Part shown: positions 14,689 through 64,000 of the stretch, piece by piece
How positions within the stretch are numbered: the stretch's first letter is position 1
How the letters are laid out: every line of letters begins with the position of its first letter
From: Thermoanaerobaculia bacterium
GTDB taxonomy: Bacteria; Acidobacteriota; Thermoanaerobaculia; Multivoradales; J023
DNA length: 64,000 nt
Direction of reading: 5' to 3'
NCBI GenBank assembly: GCA_030431255.1
Contig: JAUIJL010000004.1
Coordinates: forward strand, 496,001 to 560,000
Program-made: the position numbers and the translations under genes
Notes under the pieces: generated by a model
Seen by the model: the letters and a program-made list of their open reading frames with translations, nothing else
Told to the model about the DNA's origin: nothing
Database searches by the model: none

Positions 14689-15873
14689 TCAAGCCTGCTG
14701 AGCGACCGGAGCCTTATCTGCGGACTTACTGCCGCGCCACTGCTCCCAGAGCAAAGCGAACGGGCTGGCCACGAAGATAGACGAGTAGGTACCGATGATC
14801 ACACCGACCATCAATACGAAGGCGAATCCGCGCAGCACCTCACCACCCGCAAAGAACAAACACGCGACCACCAACAACGTCGTGCCGGAGGTCAGGATCG
14901 TTCGGGAGAGGGTTTGGTTGATGCTCAGATCCATCACCTCTTCCATGGGCTTCCGGCGATAGCGACGCATGTTCTCGCGCACGCGGTCGAAAATGACCAC
15001 CGTGTCGTTCACGGAGTAACCGACCAAGGTCAGAAACGCGGCGATGGTGGAGAGGTTGAACTCGTAGTTGAGAATGGCGAAGAGGCCGACGGTGATCAGG
15101 AAATCGTGGAATACCGCGACCAGCGCACCGATACCGAAACGCAGCTCAAAGCGGAACCAGATGTAGGCCAACATGCCCAAGAGGGACATGATCACCGCCA
15201 GATAACCCTTGGTCCGCAGCTCGGAGCCGATTTGCGGACCGACGTTCTCGCTCGACAAGACCTGGAAGGCGCCGAGCCCCGCATTGCTCTCGAGGAATTG
15301 CGCCGTGGCAGGGGTGACCTCGTCCAGCGAGGTCACCTGATCGAGGCTCTTGAAGAGCTTCAGCTCTTGCCGCTTGGACACGATGGCGTCGGCCACTGCC
15401 TCGTAATGGTTCCGAGCGGCGTCCGCGTCGGCCGCCATGCCATCGGGATCCGCCTGGATCAGCAGATCGGCGATGGTTTCGCGTCCGCGTTGGTTGAGAT
15501 CGGTTCTATTGCCGAGGTCACCGTTCAGCTGGGCATTCAAAGCCGCCAACACCTCGGCGGCAGTGCCCTCTTCGCTGTCCTCTTTGACCGGCGTTTTGAT
15601 CAAGATCTCGTGCTCTTCGGGCGCGCCGTACTGTTGAATCAGCGCCTCCCGCAAGCCGGCCTCGGTCAGTGAGTTGCGCACGTCGTCGGTGGTTTGATCC
15701 GCGTCGCGGAGCTTGAGGGTGAGCTGGGTGCCACCGACGAAGTCGATGCCGAAGTTCAGCCCCCCGAGGAACATCAGCTCGGCGACCGCAATCACCAACA
15801 GGGATAGGGACAGCCAGACGAATACCTTGCGGTATTTCAAGAACTGGATGTGGGTATTGGTAAAAAACTGCAT
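14689..15873 (-). CDS. secF: Protein translocase subunit SecF
   Basis: Inner-membrane accessory subunit of the Sec translocon that with SecD uses the proton-motive force to finish protein export. It has one N-terminal membrane helix, the signature GLNFGIDFVGGTQL, a periplasmic P1-like domain of roughly 170 residues, then five C-terminal helices containing ALVAVFHDFLITVGLFA and VGYSVNDTVVIFDRVREN. The length of 394 aa is slightly above the usual ~310 because of a longer periplasmic loop. It lies 36 bp after secD in the same operon, and a strong terminator follows. Confidence 0.97.
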   Translation of the reverse strand: MQFFTNTHIQFLKYRKVFVWLSLSLLVIAVAELMFLGGLNFGIDFVGGTQLTLKLRDADQTTDDVRNSLTEAGLREALIQQYGAPEEHEILIKTPVKEDSEEGTAAEVLAALNAQLNGDLGNRTDLNQRGRETIADLLIQADPDGMAADADAARNHYEAVADAIVSKRQELKLFKSLDQVTSLDEVTPATAQFLESNAGLGAFQVLSSENVGPQIGSELRTKGYLAVIMSLLGMLAYIWFRFELRFGIGALVAVFHDFLITVGLFAILNYEFNLSTIAAFLTLVGYSVNDTVVIFDRVRENMRRYRRKPMEEVMDLSINQTLSRTILTSGTTLLVVACLFFAGGEVLRGFAFVLMVGVIIGTYSSIFVASPFALLWEQWRGSKSADKAPVAQQA

Positions 15874-15909: not shown

Positions 15910-17478
15910 TCAGATCGACAGCTTTTCAACCCGGTCGCGACGGGAGTAAAGCGCGTCGAACAAGAAGCGGCTGATGAACACCGCCGTGAACACGGAAGCG
16001 AAAATGCCCACCGACAGGGTGACGGCAAAACCGCGGATCGGGCCGGTTCCAAACATGAAGAGGAACATGGCCGCGATCAGAGTGGTGATATTCGCGTCGA
16101 GAATGGAAGACAGTGCTTTCTCGAAACCGGCGGAGATCGCCGACTTGACCGTACGCCCGGAGCGGAGCTCCTCGCGAATGCGCTCGAACACCAGCACGTT
16201 GGCGTCCACCGCCATGCCGATGGTCAGCACGATACCGGCAATACCCGGCAGGGTGAGCACCGCGCCGAAGGAGGCCAAGGCACCGAAGACCAGGATGACG
16301 TTGAGGCCCAATGCGGTCACCGCGTTGATGCCGGTCAGCTTGTAGACCACGAGCATGGTGAGCACCACCAAAAGACCTCCGAGCATGCCGGCACGGCTAC
16401 CCTTCTCGATCGAGTCACGACCGAGGCTGGGGCCCACGGTCCGCTCTTCCAACACGGTCAACCCCGCGGGCAGAGCACCGGAACGCAACACCGTCACGAG
16501 ATCTTGGACTTCTTGTTGGGTGAAGCTACCGTGGATGACACCCTGATCACGGATGCGATCTTGGATGGTCGCTACCGACATGACCTGGTTGTCGAGCACG
16601 ATCGACAATCCGCGGCCGATGTTGGCTCCCGTGACCTCGGCGAATTTCTCGCCACCGTCGCTGGTCAGGATAAAGGCCACCGTGGGCTCGCCGAAGTCAC
16701 CTGACGACATGCGCGCGGTTTTGAGGTCACGACCGGTGATCACGCGTTTCTTTTCGAGCGCCCACCATTGCTCGCCGATCGTCCGTTTGTTTTCGTCCCG
16801 AAGCTCTTCCTTCATCACCTCGATGTCGTCGGTCAGACCCCCGGGCAGCGAATCGATGACTTGCTGCTGGGTATCTCCGGGACCGACGCCCGCGACGGAG
16901 AGCCTGAACTCGAGGAAAGCGGTGTTCTGGATCAGCTCCTTCACCCGCTCCGGATCGTCGACGCCCGGCAGCTGGACCACGATGCGGTCGGAGCCCGCGC
17001 CTTCGTCGTGGATGATCGGCTCACCCACACCGAATGCGTCAACGCGATTCCGAATCGTTTCCTGGGCCTGATTGACGGACATGCTGCGCAGGTTGTTGGC
17101 CTCTCCCGGGGTCAGGCTGATCTGCAACCGATCCCCGCTCCGGGCCATTTTCCAACCCGGCAAGTAGACCTCGACGACATCATCCTCGATCTCGCTGTCC
17201 TTGGCCGAGGGCACGCCGAGCACATCGAAGGTGTCGATGCCCGTGCGCTCGGTGGTCGCCTGGATATCCCGATCGGCGAGCTCGCGGACGAGGGTGTCGA
17301 TCGTATTGTCGGTTTCGGCACGGATGGCGTCGTCCGTTTTGACCTTCAACACCAGATGCATACCACCTTGAAGATCGAGGCCGAGGTTGATCTTTTCTTC
17401 GGGCGGATACGCCGAAATGGCCATCACCACGACGATGGTCGCGATCAGCAGGCCGCGATAAAGCAAATTACGGTCCAT
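15910..17478 (-). CDS. secD: Protein translocase subunit SecD
   Basis: 522-aa partner of SecF. The N-terminal membrane helix is followed by NLGLDLQGGMHLVLKV, a large periplasmic P1 domain with NRVDAFGVGEPIIHDEG and DRIVVQLPGVDDPERVK, and six C-terminal membrane helices with VLTIGMAVDANVLVFERIREE. The gene lies 5 bp after yajC and 36 bp before secF, the conserved order. Length and motifs match the family. Confidence 0.97.
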   Translation of the reverse strand: MDRNLLYRGLLIATIVVVMAISAYPPEEKINLGLDLQGGMHLVLKVKTDDAIRAETDNTIDTLVRELADRDIQATTERTGIDTFDVLGVPSAKDSEIEDDVVEVYLPGWKMARSGDRLQISLTPGEANNLRSMSVNQAQETIRNRVDAFGVGEPIIHDEGAGSDRIVVQLPGVDDPERVKELIQNTAFLEFRLSVAGVGPGDTQQQVIDSLPGGLTDDIEVMKEELRDENKRTIGEQWWALEKKRVITGRDLKTARMSSGDFGEPTVAFILTSDGGEKFAEVTGANIGRGLSIVLDNQVMSVATIQDRIRDQGVIHGSFTQQEVQDLVTVLRSGALPAGLTVLEERTVGPSLGRDSIEKGSRAGMLGGLLVVLTMLVVYKLTGINAVTALGLNVILVFGALASFGAVLTLPGIAGIVLTIGMAVDANVLVFERIREELRSGRTVKSAISAGFEKALSSILDANITTLIAAMFLFMFGTGPIRGFAVTLSVGIFASVFTAVFISRFLFDALYSRRDRVEKLSI

Positions 17479-17483
17479 GGTCT

Positions 17484-17810
17484 CTAACTCCCGTTATCGG
17501 CCTGGGATCCGTCCAGACCGCCGATCGCCCGTTTGGCGACTCGAACTCTGACATTGTCGGCGAGCTCCAGAACGACTATCTCCCCGTCGACTTTGATCAC
17601 CTTGCCGTAGAAACCGCCATTGGTAATCACTTTGTCGCCCTTGGAGAGCTTGTCCACCATCTCATCCAAGGCTTTCTGCTTCTTGCGCAGGGGCAAGAAC
17701 CAAATCACGTAGAAAACCAGGAAAATCAGGACCATCGGCATCAATTGCACGATCGCCGAAGGCTGCTGGCTCGCCTGAGCGAGCGCGATGGTCCACCAGA
17801 GGCTCGTCAT
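17484..17810 (-). CDS. yajC: Preprotein translocase subunit YajC
   Basis: 108-aa small membrane protein. One helix (VLIFLVFYVIWFLPLR, about 28-43) is followed by the family hallmark LRKKQKALDEMVDKLSKGDKVITNGGFYGKV and a small beta domain. It associates with SecDF. Position between tgt and secD is the widely conserved arrangement. Confidence 0.95.
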   Translation of the reverse strand: MTSLWWTIALAQASQQPSAIVQLMPMVLIFLVFYVIWFLPLRKKQKALDEMVDKLSKGDKVITNGGFYGKVIKVDGEIVVLELADNVRVRVAKRAIGGLDGSQADNGS

Positions 17811-18030
17811 CTATTTAGCTCCTCGAGAGCATGTCGATCAGAATGCGCTCTAGGCCCAAGCTATTGCCCGACGCTCGATCACCCCGGCTCGACCCCACCG
17901 GCTAGGACGCGTAACGGCCCGCAGGCATCACAGTCCGATGGCCCGGGACACGCTCCGCGCATCCGATGAGACCGACACTGTGCTGAGGGCGGAAACCGCG
18001 ATGGGTGGGGGCTCTGGGGAGGGGAAAGGT

Positions 18031-19155
18031 CTAGGACGACCCGGGATCCCCTGCGGTGTAGCGGCGGACGAATTCTTCGGCCAGAGTCGCCAACGTTCCA
18101 AGCTCGACACCCTCTCGCAAGTCGGCCATAAAGTCAAGATAGAAGCGGACGTTGAGCAGGGTGGCGAGCACCGGCGCGGTGATCTCTTTGGCCTTGAAGA
18201 GGTGGTGGAAAAACGCCCGGCTGTAACGCTGCGCCAGGGGCCAGGAGCTGTGGGGATCGATCGGCGTGGGATCGTCCTTAAAGCGGGCGTTTTTGATCTT
18301 GATCACCCCGTCGCGGGTGAACAGCTGGCCGTGACGAGCGTGACGGGCCGGCATCACACAATCGAAGAGATCGATGCCGTGCTGAACTCCGTGCAGCAGA
18401 TCCAAGGGTGTGCCCAAACCCATCAGATAACGGGGTTTGTGCTCCGGCAGCGCCGAGGTCGTGCACTCGACCGCGAAGCGACGGTGCTCGATGCCCTCGC
18501 CGACGCTGACCCCGCCGATGGCGTATCCCGCGAAATCCATCTCCGTCAGCTCGCGGGCGGCCCGCAGCCGGAGGTCCTCGAAGACCGACCCTTGGACGAT
18601 CCCGAACAGGCCACCGCCGGCTTCGTCCGGCCAAGCCTGCCTCGCCCGCTCAGCCCAGTGGTTGGTCAGCTCGAGGGACTTCGCCGCATCGGCTTTTTCG
18701 ATCGGATACGGCGGACATTCGTCGAGCATCATGGCGATGTCGACCCCCATCCGAGCTTGACTCTCGGCCACGCTCTCGGGAGTGAATTTCACCATCGAGC
18801 CGTCCAGATGACTCTTGAACACGACCCCTTCACGGCTCATCTTGCGCAGGGGCGAAAGGCTCCAGACCTGATATCCGCCGCTGTCGGTGAGGATCGGTCG
18901 TTGCCAGCCGGTGAAAGCGTGGATGCCCCCGAGGCGCTCGATGACGTCGATGCCCGGCCTCAGGGTCAGGTGGTAGAGGTTGGCGAGCATCACCGACGCG
19001 CCGGCGTCCTCGAGCTCTTGGAAGGTCAACCCCTTGACCGCTCCGAGCGTGCCGACGGGCATGAATGCCGGGGTTTCGACCACCCCGTGGGGGGTGGTCA
19101 GCCGACCCCGACGGGCTTGGCCGTCGGTGGCGAGAAGCTGGTATTTCAGGGCCAT
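18031..19155 (-). CDS. tgt: Queuine tRNA-ribosyltransferase lacking the zinc site
   Basis: 374-aa tRNA-guanine transglycosylase, which swaps G34 of GUN anticodons for a queuosine precursor. Active-site regions are intact: LTDSGGYQVWSL (general acid Asp), MLDECPPYP (base-recognition Asp), GIVQGSVFEDLR, AIGGVSVGE, and LFDCVMPARHARHG (nucleophile Asp). The structural zinc site is missing: where E. coli Tgt has Cys302, Cys304, Cys307 and His333, this protein has Ser303, Trp305, Ala308 and Leu334, while flanking residues (PIDPH, YSRAFFHHL, NVRFY) still align without gaps. The frame is open, so this is not a frameshift. It lies between lolA and yajC. Function is probable but the metal-free fold is unusual. 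Confidence 0.93.
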   Translation of the reverse strand: MALKYQLLATDGQARRGRLTTPHGVVETPAFMPVGTLGAVKGLTFQELEDAGASVMLANLYHLTLRPGIDVIERLGGIHAFTGWQRPILTDSGGYQVWSLSPLRKMSREGVVFKSHLDGSMVKFTPESVAESQARMGVDIAMMLDECPPYPIEKADAAKSLELTNHWAERARQAWPDEAGGGLFGIVQGSVFEDLRLRAARELTEMDFAGYAIGGVSVGEGIEHRRFAVECTTSALPEHKPRYLMGLGTPLDLLHGVQHGIDLFDCVMPARHARHGQLFTRDGVIKIKNARFKDDPTPIDPHSSWPLAQRYSRAFFHHLFKAKEITAPVLATLLNVRFYLDFMADLREGVELGTLATLAEEFVRRYTAGDPGSS

Positions 19156-19206
19156 AGATTGATGTGGGAGGCTCGGATCACCGCACGCTTTTCGAAAGGG
19201 CTGAGC

Positions 19207-19998
19207 TCACTGACCCTTTCCGCCGTCACCCTTCTCGGTTTTGGCGGCTCGCTTGCCTTTTTTGCCCAGCTCGACCACCTTGACCTCGACATCTTCCGGC
19301 AGCTCGACCACGAATTGCTCTTCGGCGATCTCTTCGTTGACCGTTACGTCCTCAAAGAAGAATTCGGTCACGCTGCCGTCCGGCTCCACGTATTTCAGGT
19401 ACAGCGGGTAGTAGCCCGTGCGATGCAGGTGGATGCCCATGCCTTTGATCTTCTTCTCGACCCGCTTGAACTTCGGCACCAGCTCCAATCGGTAGGGCGC
19501 CTCGGGGTCCCGCGGAAAGGTGGTGCGCAGGGTGAAGTAGCGCTGCAAGGTCTCCAAGGAGTTGCTGGCGGAGAGATACTCCATCACCCGATCCGCCTGC
19601 TTGCCGACGTTGACCTTCTCCGCCGTGCCCAAGTCCCGGAACCAGGTGAGCATCTCGTTGGCTCGAATCAACACGGTGGTCTGATTCGGCTCGCTGAAAT
19701 CCCAGCGCACGCGATCCGGAGACTGGTACCAAAATCGACCCTTGGAATCCTCCGGCTCCATCAGGAACACGCTTTCCTTGCGTTGGATGAAGTTGGCTTC
19801 CATGGTGGCGAGCTGCGCCTGCTCGTATTTGATGCGTTCGATCAACAGCTCGAGGCGCTCGCTGATCCCCAAGCCTTCTTGCTCCGGGTCCGGAATGTCC
19901 TCGGCGAGCACAGCAGGCGTATGAAGCAAGAGCGATAGAAGGAAAATCGATGACGCCAGGCGTCTCGGACGAGAGGTTTTGAAAGTCATCCAGTCCAT
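19207..19998 (-). CDS. lolA: LolA-like periplasmic lipoprotein carrier
   Basis: 263-aa protein with an N-terminal signal peptide (ASSIFLLSLLLHTPAVLA, ending near residue 32). The mature part fits the LolA fold: an opening helix (ERIKYEQAQLATMEANFIQRK), then RFWYQSPDRVRWDFSEPNQTTVLIRANEML and a run of beta strands. LolA ferries lipoproteins from the inner to the outer membrane, which supports a diderm host. A Lys-rich C-terminal tail (GKKGKRAAKTEKGDGGKG) is an unusual extension. It is the first gene of the minus-strand sec operon. An ATG at 19989 is an alternative start. Confidence 0.85.
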   Translation of the reverse strand: MDWMTFKTSRPRRLASSIFLLSLLLHTPAVLAEDIPDPEQEGLGISERLELLIERIKYEQAQLATMEANFIQRKESVFLMEPEDSKGRFWYQSPDRVRWDFSEPNQTTVLIRANEMLTWFRDLGTAEKVNVGKQADRVMEYLSASNSLETLQRYFTLRTTFPRDPEAPYRLELVPKFKRVEKKIKGMGIHLHRTGYYPLYLKYVEPDGSVTEFFFEDVTVNEEIAEEQFVVELPEDVEVKVVELGKKGKRAAKTEKGDGGKGQ

Positions 19999-59766: not shown

Positions 59767-60510
59767 TCACACTAACTGAGCTTCAAATTTGAGCCTGCGG
59801 CGGATTTCTGGAATCCAAATAACCATCTGGACGAGGCAGATAACCCCAGCAGCAAAAATCATTCCAACAAACACTATTGGTTTCCAATTAGCGAGCGTTC
59901 CGTCTATGCGAAATGATAAGAGTGCCATTGAAACTGAAATGATCAAAAGTACTACGTCAAAGAACAGCCACAAGTGCTTCATCTTTTGACGCTGCTCCGC
60001 AGGCGAATCTCCAAGGTTTACGAAGGAATTCTCGCCTGATGCCACCATTATTTCCCGATACATCGCGAAATCCCAACCGATCAAAATCAGAAAGAGTGTC
60101 GTATAGTAACCCCACAAAGAGAGCCCGAGAGGAAGCTCTTCGCCAGAAGCAACCTTGCTAAAGCAGTTTGGCAAGTAGCTCACGAGAAAAACCCATAGGG
60201 CCCGCAGAATCCACTCCACTTTTCTAATTACATTAGTTAGTTTCTCCGAACCCAAGATCGGCAAGCTGTCGACTGCCCATGCATGGGCATAAAGTCTCGC
60301 CGCCATTGAAGTATGTGCAATAATTACGGGATAGGCCAACCCTGGAAGCTCCAGCAGCTGTTCTCCCTCCTCGGTAACAACCGTCAACTGTATTGCCTTT
60401 GCAATATTGGGAAGACTCTCTAGAGTGCCTAGCAGATAAACAGCGCAAGAAGTCACAGCAAACACGGAAACCGTTAAACCGCCCTTCTTCTGCCGCTCGA
60501 AGGTAACCAT
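59767..60510 (-). CDS. Polytopic membrane protein of unknown function
   Basis: 247-aa protein with about five hydrophobic helices (LTVSVFAVTSCAVYLLGTL, ILRALWVFLVSYL, YYTTLFLILIGWDFAMY, HLWLFFDVVLLIISVSMALL, PIVFVGMIFAAGVICLVQMV) and a basic C-terminus (RRRLKFEA). I do not recognise a family. It is the last gene of the AT-richer minus-strand operon, 15 bp after the DxDDT protein gene, so it probably shares that system's function. Confidence 0.75.
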   Translation of the reverse strand: MVTFERQKKGGLTVSVFAVTSCAVYLLGTLESLPNIAKAIQLTVVTEEGEQLLELPGLAYPVIIAHTSMAARLYAHAWAVDSLPILGSEKLTNVIRKVEWILRALWVFLVSYLPNCFSKVASGEELPLGLSLWGYYTTLFLILIGWDFAMYREIMVASGENSFVNLGDSPAEQRQKMKHLWLFFDVVLLIISVSMALLSFRIDGTLANWKPIVFVGMIFAAGVICLVQMVIWIPEIRRRLKFEAQLV

Positions 60511-60525
60511 GTCCCTTCCCTCTAC

Positions 60526-61575
60526 CTACCCCGTTCGCAAGAACGGTGATCTATTCCGCCTGTTGGCAATTTCGAAGCCTTGAAGGCGCCTAGTCCATCC
60601 AGGAGAACCATAGTAGTGTCTGAGTCGACGGTGGCGAAAAACTATATCCGGAGATTCATTCTCCGGCTCAACTGTGCCTTCCAATGAACCTCGTTCAACA
60701 GTGGAAATTGGAGGATATTCGCAAAGGCCCAGAAAGCCCTCGAGTATTCCCCACCATTTCGCTTCCTGTGAATATTTGTTTCCGACTTTCAGACAACTGT
60801 CTTCTTTATGGCTCTCTACCCTTTCTTTCAGCGATCTAGGGTTCACTCCAATTTCTTCAAGATCTACATAGAGAAGACACGCCGCCTCCGCAAGGCGATA
60901 GGCAAAATGACCCGCCGAAAAGTAGTATCTAGAGAGATCAGAAAAGGGAACTCCATTTAAGCTGAAGTTGAGAACCTCGCCAGCTCGACGAAGAAGAGCG
61001 AGGAGTAGATGCCTATTTCTCGTAGCAACCTTGGGATACCAAAGTGCGGTAGTTCGAACAGTCGCGACCGTCACCATTGGATCTTCTCTTTTCGGTAGAT
61101 TCCTTGAGTCTCCAAGAAAGACCGACAGCGCAAAAGTAGACTCGGATTTCAAGCGAGTGTCTACACCCAAGAAGGCCCGCTCGAATATCGAAGATTTCAG
61201 ATGTCTCTCCCACCAAGAGTCGTCCGGAATAGGACCCCTCAGATCCAGCACTAGCCCCAACGTCTGTATAGCTCTGACAAGATCGACTGCCTTCGAGGTG
61301 TCATCCCAATCTGGTGGAAAATCCACTCCTGAAATAGACGGTGTCTTTTCCCATTTCCACGCCGAACAACCGTCATAAATAACAGCTTCTTCCGCTACTC
61401 GATCAGCAGAGGATCTTAACTCTTCTATGTCGTTCTGTTGTAAGCCCTCAAGCTGGCAGAAAGCCTCCGCCAGATAGCACTCCAAACCTAGATTCGATGA
61501 TCTTCCGACGTGAGCAGACGCCTCAATCTCATTATATCGATAAGTTTCTGCTCTTATTGGACTTAAGCCCGACAT
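60526..61575 (-). CDS. Uncharacterised helical protein with DxDDT motif (terpene-cyclase/prenyltransferase-like toroid candidate)
   Basis: 349-aa soluble protein. Residues 87-94 read PPDWDDTS, matching the DxDDT acid motif of class II terpene cyclases (Asp89, Asp91, Asp92), and the flanking WKWEKTPSISGVDF and KAVDLVRAIQTLG resemble one repeat of an alpha/alpha toroid. Other helices (RAGEVLNFSLNG, FAYRLAEAACLLYVDLEE) would fit such a fold. I cannot find the repeated QW motifs of squalene-hopene cyclase, so this could be a non-cyclase relative. It starts at the base after the EcfT-like stop (TGAATG) and is followed by a membrane protein gene. Codon use is AT-richer than the core genome. Confidence 0.7.
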   Translation of the reverse strand: MSGLSPIRAETYRYNEIEASAHVGRSSNLGLECYLAEAFCQLEGLQQNDIEELRSSADRVAEEAVIYDGCSAWKWEKTPSISGVDFPPDWDDTSKAVDLVRAIQTLGLVLDLRGPIPDDSWWERHLKSSIFERAFLGVDTRLKSESTFALSVFLGDSRNLPKREDPMVTVATVRTTALWYPKVATRNRHLLLALLRRAGEVLNFSLNGVPFSDLSRYYFSAGHFAYRLAEAACLLYVDLEEIGVNPRSLKERVESHKEDSCLKVGNKYSQEAKWWGILEGFLGLCEYPPISTVERGSLEGTVEPENESPDIVFRHRRLRHYYGSPGWTRRLQGFEIANRRNRSPFLRTG

Positions 61576-62262
61576 TCATATTCTCCATTTATTTTCTAAT
61601 AAATAAGCTAGTGTACTAAGAATGGCAGCCGTGCAGAGCCTTCCCAAGAGAGACTCTGACGATCGGCTCCAAGCAGTCCCAGAGACCAATCTATAGTGCC
61701 GCACTATCGCCGCTGAATGCACTGTTCTCGAGACATCAGGTACTCGCGCAGCAACGACTATTGCCAACAAATAGGCTTGGCGAACTCTGTCGAAACCGCT
61801 CTTGCGAACCTGTCCACTTTTGAGGGAATACTTCAAGCCTTGAGCAAATTCAGATATTGCGCTCGGAAGCAGGTTGCGATGGAGTGCAAATGCCTCCCAG
61901 AATCCAGGCTCACCTGATTTTCTTCTAATTAGCCCAACCAGTGAATCAAAATAAGATGGCATTACCAAGACTGTAGATATAACAGCGCAAAGGAGGTACC
62001 TAGCCAACATCTCAGCACCATCAAAGGGACTGATCAGGAGAGCCAACACAACTAGAGCGCAAAAGCCAAGCCCCCTCTTTAGAAAACCAGAGAGACCTTC
62101 CCAGGCATCGGCCAAGCACCAGCCATGAAACCAGATTACTACCATGCCGGTCAGAAAGAGCCCCCACGGATTCAGATTCAGCGCCAATGCTGATGCCCCC
62201 ACCACATAGACAACTCCAAAAAAAATGCTGGCCCAGCTTGACCAATTCGAAAGGCTATGCAA
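61576..62262 (-). CDS. EcfT-like energy-coupling transmembrane protein
   Basis: 228-aa membrane protein. N-terminal helices (ASIFFGVVYVVGASALAL, WGLFLTGMVVIWFHGWCL, LGFCALVVLALLISPF, LARYLLCAVISTVLVM) are followed by an amphipathic region with basic residues (RQAYLLAIVVAARVPDVS, AIVRHYRLVSG), where EcfT proteins have the Ala-Arg-x coupling helices that touch the ATPases. Identity is weak at motif level; the call rests largely on context between a fused two-domain ATPase and S-like gene. TTG start overlapping the ATPase stop by 8 bp. Confidence 0.6.
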   Translation of the reverse strand: MHSLSNWSSWASIFFGVVYVVGASALALNLNPWGLFLTGMVVIWFHGWCLADAWEGLSGFLKRGLGFCALVVLALLISPFDGAEMLARYLLCAVISTVLVMPSYFDSLVGLIRRKSGEPGFWEAFALHRNLLPSAISEFAQGLKYSLKSGQVRKSGFDRVRQAYLLAIVVAARVPDVSRTVHSAAIVRHYRLVSGTAWSRSSESLLGRLCTAAILSTLAYLLENKWRI

Positions 62263-63556
62263 TTTTCAGAACCTTGCTTCGAATGTTTTTAAAGCACTGC
62301 TCGGGAGCTGCACTGATAACGATTTTGCCGTGGTTACACCCTAGCTCAACAGCTCCTTTGATGACTTCTACGTGCTCTTCGTCCAATCCGGCAAATGGCT
62401 CATCTAAGAGAACTATGGGAGCTCCTGAGGCTAGGGCCAGAAGAATCGCAAGTAGCTTTCGCTGACCGAAGCTCAGCGCAAGCACATCGAGGTCAAAAGT
62501 ATTCGCTCTAACTTCTTGGTGCAACCCTCGTCGTTGTTTTTTGTCCCGGAAGTGAGAACGAAGACATCTCTCTATTTCGTCACCTACAGTTGGCCCTAAG
62601 ACTTGGTAGATGGGATCAGCTGGTACAAACGAAGCTTTGTATATTCCCCTCTGCCGCGAAGAAATAAACATAGGCGGCCAGAAAAATCTTTTATTTGAGG
62701 TAAATATATTCCAAAGGCTTCTCAGAAGAGTAGATTTGCCTACACCGTTTCTTCCAACAACCTCAATCAAATCACCAGAACTGGCCTTAATATTAATGAC
62801 TCTCTTGACCCCGACCGGCAATTCGACGCTTTCATCGACGGTTGTCTCAGCCGCAGCAGCGGCAGGAATAAGGCGATTGGTTAGCTCCTTAACCTCACCT
62901 GCAATATCCCAGTGCTCTCGCTCTTCTTGCTGGACCACAAGAGTCGACAGGAGGTCGAGGGGATACCCGTCTGGAGCTCCGCTCGAAGAATTCACCAATG
63001 CGAGATGGGTAGTTCCATTACCACACAGGCGACCCAGCAACTCAAGAATCTTCAGACGCCAGAAAGTATCGAGATGGAGATCCCATTCGTCGGACACTAT
63101 CACTTTAGGGTGGGAAGCAATGGTCAACGCAATCTGGATTCGCTTTTTTTCGCCATCAGAGAGAACACCCTGGGGACGATCCGATAGCTCAAAGATCGCA
63201 AGCTCTTCATAGACCTCGGCGGCCCAGGTTTCCGATCCATTCCCCACTAGTGATACCGCTTTGGCCTCAGATTCTAAAGAATATCCTAGTGAAAAATGTT
63301 GCCACCTCTGAGGAATCACTCGAACTAAATCGCTCTTCAAAGGAAGATAACGGCGATCTCCTAGAAAAAGGTCCATTTCGATGTTTGCCCAGATCGCCTC
63401 AGGAATGACTCCTGCGAGGAAAAGAGACAGCGTGGATTTACCTTTTCCGTTTCCAGCCAGCAAGGCCTGACATCGCCTGTTTTGACTCAGACTAAATTCT
63501 TCAAATTCAATTGATGTACCACTGTAACCTACAGCACCTGCCGACCATCCAATCAT
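62255..63556 (-). CDS. Fused two-domain ABC ATPase (EcfA-EcfA'-like)
   Basis: 433-aa protein with two nucleotide-binding domains in one chain. Domain 1: Walker A AGNGKGKST (34-42), signature LSDGE (132-136), Walker B VIVSDE (152-157). Domain 2: Walker A GRNGVGKST (268-276), signature LSFGQ (361-365), Walker B IVLLDEPFAGLD (381-392). The switch-loop His is missing in both: domain 2 has ISAAPE where STHD-like sequence is normal, and domain 1 has ALVNSSSG. Fused ATPases like this drive ECF-type vitamin/metal importers. Flanked by S-like and T-like genes. Confidence 0.85.
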   Translation of the reverse strand: MIGWSAGAVGYSGTSIEFEEFSLSQNRRCQALLAGNGKGKSTLSLFLAGVIPEAIWANIEMDLFLGDRRYLPLKSDLVRVIPQRWQHFSLGYSLESEAKAVSLVGNGSETWAAEVYEELAIFELSDRPQGVLSDGEKKRIQIALTIASHPKVIVSDEWDLHLDTFWRLKILELLGRLCGNGTTHLALVNSSSGAPDGYPLDLLSTLVVQQEEREHWDIAGEVKELTNRLIPAAAAAETTVDESVELPVGVKRVINIKASSGDLIEVVGRNGVGKSTLLRSLWNIFTSNKRFFWPPMFISSRQRGIYKASFVPADPIYQVLGPTVGDEIERCLRSHFRDKKQRRGLHQEVRANTFDLDVLALSFGQRKLLAILLALASGAPIVLLDEPFAGLDEEHVEVIKGAVELGCNHGKIVISAAPEQCFKNIRSKVLKIA

Positions 63557-63581
63557 GCCCTTGCCTCGAAGGCTTGATCCT

Positions 63582-64000
63582 TCAGGATTCTTGCCTCAAG
63601 TCCCTAAACAGACTTAGTTTGGCGAGCCGTCCATTGTACACAACTTCGCCGAGATATACTCCAGCTGTCGTAACAACCATATTGATACTCATGAGAATCC
63701 AGAACGCTTGTTCGTATTTCGCCAGTGCTACAGCAGGGTCCTTACCGAAGCCGAAACTCAGCGCTGCAATAAGGGAAAGCATGATGCTGGCAGCCCCAAC
63801 AATAGCGCCCGTATAGAGACCAAGTCTGCCCTTGCCCAGCAAGGTGTATATCAAGTCCCAAAGACTCCCTGCTAAAAACCCTATTGCTATTTTGTAAATG
63901 CCCGGAGGTCCGAGAGTGGTTGTCCAAACAGCCAAAGTGGAAAACACCAGCCACATCACAGTTGCTGCTCCAAAAAAGCGAGTCGCTAAGAGTCCCACTG
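63582..64000 (-). CDS. ECF transporter S component-like membrane protein (5' partial)
   Basis: At least 138 aa, reaching the window edge; a GTG at 63998 could be a start but the frame is open. Four or five hydrophobic helices. GPPGIYKIAIGFLAGSLWDL, followed by a loop and GLYTGAIVGAASIMLSLIAAL, resembles the Gly-rich helices of S components, which bind the substrate in ECF importers. No substrate-binding residues can be named. It lies 25 bp before the fused ATPase gene. Another small membrane protein family is possible. Confidence 0.55.
   Translation of the reverse strand, partial: VGLLATRFFGAATVMWLVFSTLAVWTTTLGPPGIYKIAIGFLAGSLWDLIYTLLGKGRLGLYTGAIVGAASIMLSLIAALSFGFGKDPAVALAKYEQAFWILMSINMVVTTAGVYLGEVVYNGRLAKLSLFRDLRQES

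Follow-up and report, generated by a model that had tools for sequence, protein, structure and literature searches.

Loss of all four zinc ligands from an otherwise intact tRNA-guanine transglycosylase in one genus of Thermoanaerobaculia

We found that the tRNA-guanine(34) transglycosylase (Tgt) of the genome studied (G000) has all four zinc ligands replaced, whereas its modelled fold, its catalytic and base-recognition residues and its length are those of the zinc-type Tgts of Z. mobilis and E. coli (TIGR00430), and the positions of their dimer hot spot can be matched in its alignment. Most likely this is an ordinary, vertically inherited and working Tgt whose structural zinc site was lost on the stem of its genus by point substitutions at the four ligands. 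Losses of this kind are widespread in Bacteroidota and, as far as the open-licence PMC literature goes, apparently undescribed; the novelty of the present case lies in the clean replacement of all four ligands within the existing gene of one genus, and in the zinc-free forms of the ribosomal proteins L31 and S14 that accompany it.

The zinc site and the rest of the protein

The tgt gene is an open reading frame with an ATG start at positions 18031 to 19155 on the minus strand of the window, by which we mean the whole stretch of 64,000 nt that was analysed, and encodes a protein of 374 amino acids without the zinc site. It is the sole copy in the window, and its product, as a full-length match, exceeded the curated cut-offs of both TIGR00430 (453.6 bits, cut-off 306.75, residues 5–367) and PF01702 (454.5 bits, cut-off 26.3). 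A second tgt, which the sequence-only reading had proposed to look for, was sought via PF01702 across the whole genome (10.2 Mb, 98.8% complete) and none was found, this gene being the single PF01702 gene there.

We take the zinc ligands of E. coli Tgt to be Cys302, Cys304, Cys307 and His333. The zinc-site region aligned without gaps, with DPHSSWPLAQRYSRAF...ATLLNVRFY in G000 against CxCxxC...HN in its relatives. At the columns which hold Cys, Cys, Cys and His in the family, the G000 protein has Ser303 (codon at 18247–18249), Trp305 (18241–18243), Ala308 (18232–18234) and Leu334 (18154–18156), all on the minus strand and with calculated coordinates. Where a zinc-type Tgt carries three cysteines and one histidine (CxCxxC...H), this protein therefore carries S, W, A and L; the same four residues had been read from the sequence beforehand, and our alignment confirmed them, with all of their codons inside positions 18130 to 18270.

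The earlier reading was also borne out in its claim that the catalytic aspartates and the base-recognition residues are intact. D91, D145, D265, Q188, G214 and G215 were invariant in 170 of 170 aligned Tgt rows (one Bacteroidota Tgt, L105/L119, being present twice), and Asp145, Gln188, Gly214 and Gly215 are residues of the preQ1 pocket. Asp265 and Asp91 correspond to Asp280 and Asp102 of Z. mobilis Tgt, which are named as its catalytic aspartates in PMC4425180. The aromatic hot spot of the Z. mobilis Tgt dimer consists, according to PMC5395182, of Phe92, Trp326, Tyr330 and His333, the last three of which are on the helix directly after the zinc cysteines. By alignment mapping these positions are held in the G000 protein by Phe81, Tyr311, Phe315 and His318, all aromatic or histidine; codons 311–318, with Tyr311, Phe315 and His318 at the places of Trp326, Tyr330 and His333, lie at 18202–18225 on the minus strand.

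An AlphaFold model of the G000 protein, built from 44 of 47 alignment rows (L056, L068 and L069 were excluded), had a mean pLDDT of 92.8. Across residues 301–310 the value was 88, compared with a mean of 92.7 and a value of 93 in this block for a zinc-type control (L031) modelled from the same alignment, so that confidence across the zinc-site loop was slightly below that of the control. The model superposed on Z. mobilis Tgt with a TM of 0.95 at 1.3 Å and has the same overall fold, although it should be noted that such a model is biased to the usual fold because its alignment consists mostly of zinc-type relatives.

A single origin of the loss

The analysis covered two genomes of the genus and seven of the family. 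In the second genome of the genus (G001) the Tgt is 73% identical to that of G000 and has Ser, Trp, Ala and Val at the four ligand places. As this separate genome shows the same loss of four ligands, and as the frame in G000 is open without gaps, an artefact of sequencing, assembly or reading frame can be dismissed as vanishingly improbable. The four Tgts from sister genera of the same family (G002–G005) have Cys, Cys, Cys and His, and that of the remaining family member (G006) is a fragment only, in which the ligand His is visible. The sequence-only reading had counted a kept CxCxxC...H in close relatives as evidence against itself; this motif is indeed kept in the sister genera (G002–G005) and is not kept in the congener, and since the sisters are zinc-type and the congener is not, its retention dates the loss and does not refute it.

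We then considered wider samples. Outside the genus, 119 of the 120 distinct readable Tgts from the same class had all four ligands, and the remaining one, from a genome of the same order (G013), kept three (CCCA). A search of genome contigs, Bacteroidota apart, yielded 73 further distinct readable Tgt matches, every one of which (73/73) keeps all four ligands. Both tallies omit L061, L171, L181 and L182, whose rows are gapped at a ligand position; among these, the planctomycete Tgt L061, gapped at a single ligand position, lacks one ligand or more. It is also worthy of note that the genome with the CCCA Tgt (loci L178, L421 and L422) contains both zinc and zinc-free S14. Divergent second Tgt copies with an intact zinc site were seen at L026 (G014) and L183 (G026), and the motif near the nucleophile is altered in these copies (CIIPTQVAQR in L183).

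In a tree made without the zinc columns, from rows of over 250 aa and with no Bacteroidota rows, the Tgts of G000 and G001 were sisters (support 100/97) nested among CCCH members of the family, the four other full-length Tgts of the family in the tree all being CCCH. The stem of the genus measured 0.10 changes per site. From this sisterhood within a zinc-type family it follows that all four ligands were lost on one short branch, and the proposal that they had been lost together on a single branch was thereby upheld. Horizontal gain of the gene, with Bacteroidota as one conceivable donor of a zinc-free Tgt, was considered and rejected, as the tree nests the protein in its own family and, for the Bacteroidota (which are absent from the tree), the identities of 67–73% to the sisters leave no room for such a gain.

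The changes in the two proteins were confined to the zinc site as far as the most conserved columns are concerned. The reference set for this comparison comprised 224 Tgt rows with an intact site; it was not deduplicated and includes some Bacteroidota rows. Of its 68 columns with at least 98% conservation, all 4 ligand columns and 0 of the 64 others were changed in both proteins (Fisher: P = 1.2e−6). Lowering the threshold to 95% gave 4/4 ligand columns and 0/79 others, and lowering it to 90% gave 4/4 and 0/98. Six intact relatives used as a control at 95% each had 0 or 1 conserved column changed. Between G000 and G001 we obtained dN/dS of about 0.225/1.22 for the whole of tgt and 0.170/0.80 for residues 296–345, roughly 0.2 in both, values which are only rough because dS is near saturation. 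Ser303, Trp305 and Ala308 are common to the two proteins despite 27% of positions differing between them. Further changes near the site in sequence that are shared on the stem are V/M/I320F and G327A; P306 and L307 are found in the Tgts of the sister genera too.

Zinc-site erosion in Bacteroidota

The zinc site had been described in the sequence-only reading as nearly universal in this enzyme family. This is close to the truth for the class discussed above and fails in Bacteroidota: 61 genomes of this phylum gave 60 Tgts, of which 46 were without two to four ligands. Four ligands were kept in 14 of these proteins, two in 8, one in 26 and none in 12. The catalytic residues were intact in those with a lost zinc site. 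Since 46 of the 60 are without a complete site, the site is a hallmark and not a condition of the wider Tgt family, and incomplete-site Tgts are common in one phylum; likewise the complete loss of four ligands in our genus is not unique, because 12 of the Bacteroidota Tgts are also without any ligand. The zinc state of Tgt has changed at least three times on the Bacteroidota tree. Erosion in many residue patterns could be observed across the Bacteroidota loci (L119, L121–L170 and L303–L311).

The Bacteroidota proteins resemble the one studied here in that ligands were lost from a single-copy, otherwise intact Tgt. They differ in that they have replacing residues of their own (LGSQ, FNCQ, GTDH etc.) and in that their loss is deep and often partial, in contrast to the complete loss on one short branch in the genus studied. 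When the sequence of a zinc-free Tgt from Bacteroidota was searched against the PDB, none of the matches listed appeared to be the structure of a zinc-free Tgt, and no report of zinc-free Tgts was seen among the open-licence PMC papers listed by our literature searches.

These part-eroded sites bear on the question of why the ligands were lost. In one explanation a first ligand was lost in a fold that tolerated it and the others drifted afterwards, giving zinc independence without any benefit. The many Bacteroidota Tgts that keep one or two ligands (26 and 8 of 60) are what such a process should leave behind, as are the CCCA Tgt in the same order and the partial loss in the planctomycete L061. 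However, in our genus there is no ligand left and the branch is short, and two species 27% apart agree in the replacing residues W, P, L and A, which suggests constrained replacement; this last argument is weakened by P306 and L307 being residues of the sister genera as well. We regard such an unselected ratchet as quite possible, though short of probable. The earlier proposal that coordinated loss points to selection is accordingly upheld in part: the ligands were lost together, on one branch, from an intact and constrained enzyme, but selection for a fold independent of zinc does not follow from this, as the many part-eroded sites of Bacteroidota (FNCH, FSCH and GTDH among them) fit unselected decay once a first ligand has gone.

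Zinc-free ribosomal proteins in the genus

We also compared five other zinc proteins (L31, S14, L36, S4 and L24), with L31 searched in 80 of 192 genomes and S14 in 63. L31 was present in G000 and G001 in one form only, which is long and cysteine-free, compared with a zinc form (CxC...CxxC) in all five other genomes of the family (G002–G006). S14 was likewise present in one form only, long, zinc-free and located outside the spc operon, compared with CxxC...CxxC in G002–G005; unlike G002 and G003, G001 has no S14 between L5 and S8 (loci L396, L399 and L313 for the S14 of the genus). L36 and S4 have kept their cysteines and are of the zinc type in the genus, so a genus-wide zinc-free set fits Tgt, L31 and S14 and fails for L36 and S4. 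L24 was rejected as a further zinc loss of the genus: its four-cysteine motif is complete in G003 and broken in G000, G001 and G002 (L312, L313, L314 and L315), and the absence of the same cysteines from a sister genus makes it uninformative. Taken together, the L31 and S14 forms suggest that parts of the translation machinery of this genus no longer need zinc. An L28-like gene adjoins the zinc-free L31 in both genomes (L234, L235, L429 and L430), and an Rfam scan of three loci around L31 and S14 gave no matches.

Zinc-free, or C-minus, forms of ribosomal proteins were reportedly described by Makarova et al. in 2001. The C-minus forms L31B and S14 are similar to the present case in that a structural zinc site has been lost in proteins of translation, and both C-minus forms occur in the genus studied. 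There, however, a zinc-free paralogue replaces or accompanies the zinc form, whereas Tgt has been altered in place.

A plausible cause of the Tgt loss is zinc economy, in which selection during low-zinc life, past or present, stripped the metal from sites that are abundant or can be spared, that of Tgt included, with L31 and S14 swapped for zinc-free forms. It is a serious candidate because every L31 and S14 of the genus is zinc-free, against the zinc forms in the sister genera, and zinc-free L31 paralogues are an established zinc-saving device according to PMC9825181. The retention of cysteines in L36 and S4 speaks against it, and the five proteins on which the comparison is based include the uninformative L24. 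Family f4 of the same order is a further difficulty: both f4 genomes read (G009 and G017) have zinc-free S14 together with intact Tgts, and G009 has zinc-free L31 as well. Zinc sites are therefore not shed in a fixed order, and G009 rules out a strict coupling of Tgt to L31 or S14. The f4 loci carrying zinc-free S14 or L31 beside an intact zinc-type Tgt are L383, L393 and L394.

Among Bacteroidota, L31 with cysteines was found in 12 of the 14 genomes with an intact Tgt versus 13 of the 46 with a lost site, an association in the direction expected from zinc economy which is significant but confounded by clade (Fisher: P = 3e−4). With at least three changes of Tgt state, the contrast between Tgt and L31 comes down to one independent pair on starred branches and three on all branches, and the association mostly reflects shared ancestry. 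Weighing these points, we hold zinc economy as a possible explanation and no further than that. Similarly tentative is the broader idea that Tgt is a translation-related zinc site shed in concert with L31 and S14, which would place the queuosine step within an evolved, permanent zinc economy and have a hydrophobic plug replace the metal. If the link to zinc-free L31 and S14 is true, the loss of zinc known from ribosomal proteins extends to a tRNA-modifying enzyme.

Probable function of the protein

QueA, which acts on the product of Tgt, is present in all seven genomes of the family. Purifying selection on tgt, the presence of QueA and the lack of a second tgt together make it very probable that the G000 protein is a functional Tgt and most likely that it works without zinc. 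The alternative that it is inactive, and either kept for another role or decaying, draws on the site it has lost, since Tgt is stated to require zinc for activity, with E. coli work cited, in PMC9508795 (2022). The catalytic and base-site residues are intact, however, none of the 64 other highly conserved columns has changed, dN/dS is low and QueA is there for the product, and we consider an inactive protein very improbable.

For a working zinc-free enzyme, the side chains of the Ser-x-Trp-Pro-Leu-Ala turn and of Leu/Val334 would occupy the former metal site, with Trp305 probably packing against Leu/Val334, and V/I/M320F and G327A are candidate compensations. Through the Trp/Leu/Ala replacement, the helix with the dimer-interface aromatics could stay in place without the metal, and the protein would still dimerise and exchange G34 for preQ1. 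Another metal, or a second set of ligands elsewhere in the protein, may also be involved. What led to this state is less certain, and might have been a lower zinc demand of the translation machinery or unselected decay after the loss of a first ligand. Sister genera with and without the site, at about 72% Tgt identity, form a natural pair in which the role of the zinc is directly testable.

Gene neighbourhood

The neighbours of tgt, all on the minus strand and named by eye, are a LolA-like gene upstream (19207–19998) and, on the other side, yajC-like (17484–17810), secD-like (15910–17478) and secF-like (14689–15873) genes. The order tgt-yajC-secD-secF, and the position of the LolA-like gene next to tgt, are kept in the congener G001 and in the sister genus G002. 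An open reading frame of 666 codons runs antisense to tgt and lolA on the plus strand (17938–19938), and its GC content by codon position resembles a shadow of the minus-strand genes. At the end of the window, positions 59767–64000 have a codon pattern unlike the rest and a lower GC content (0.487 for 60001–64000), and this segment is possibly an acquired island.
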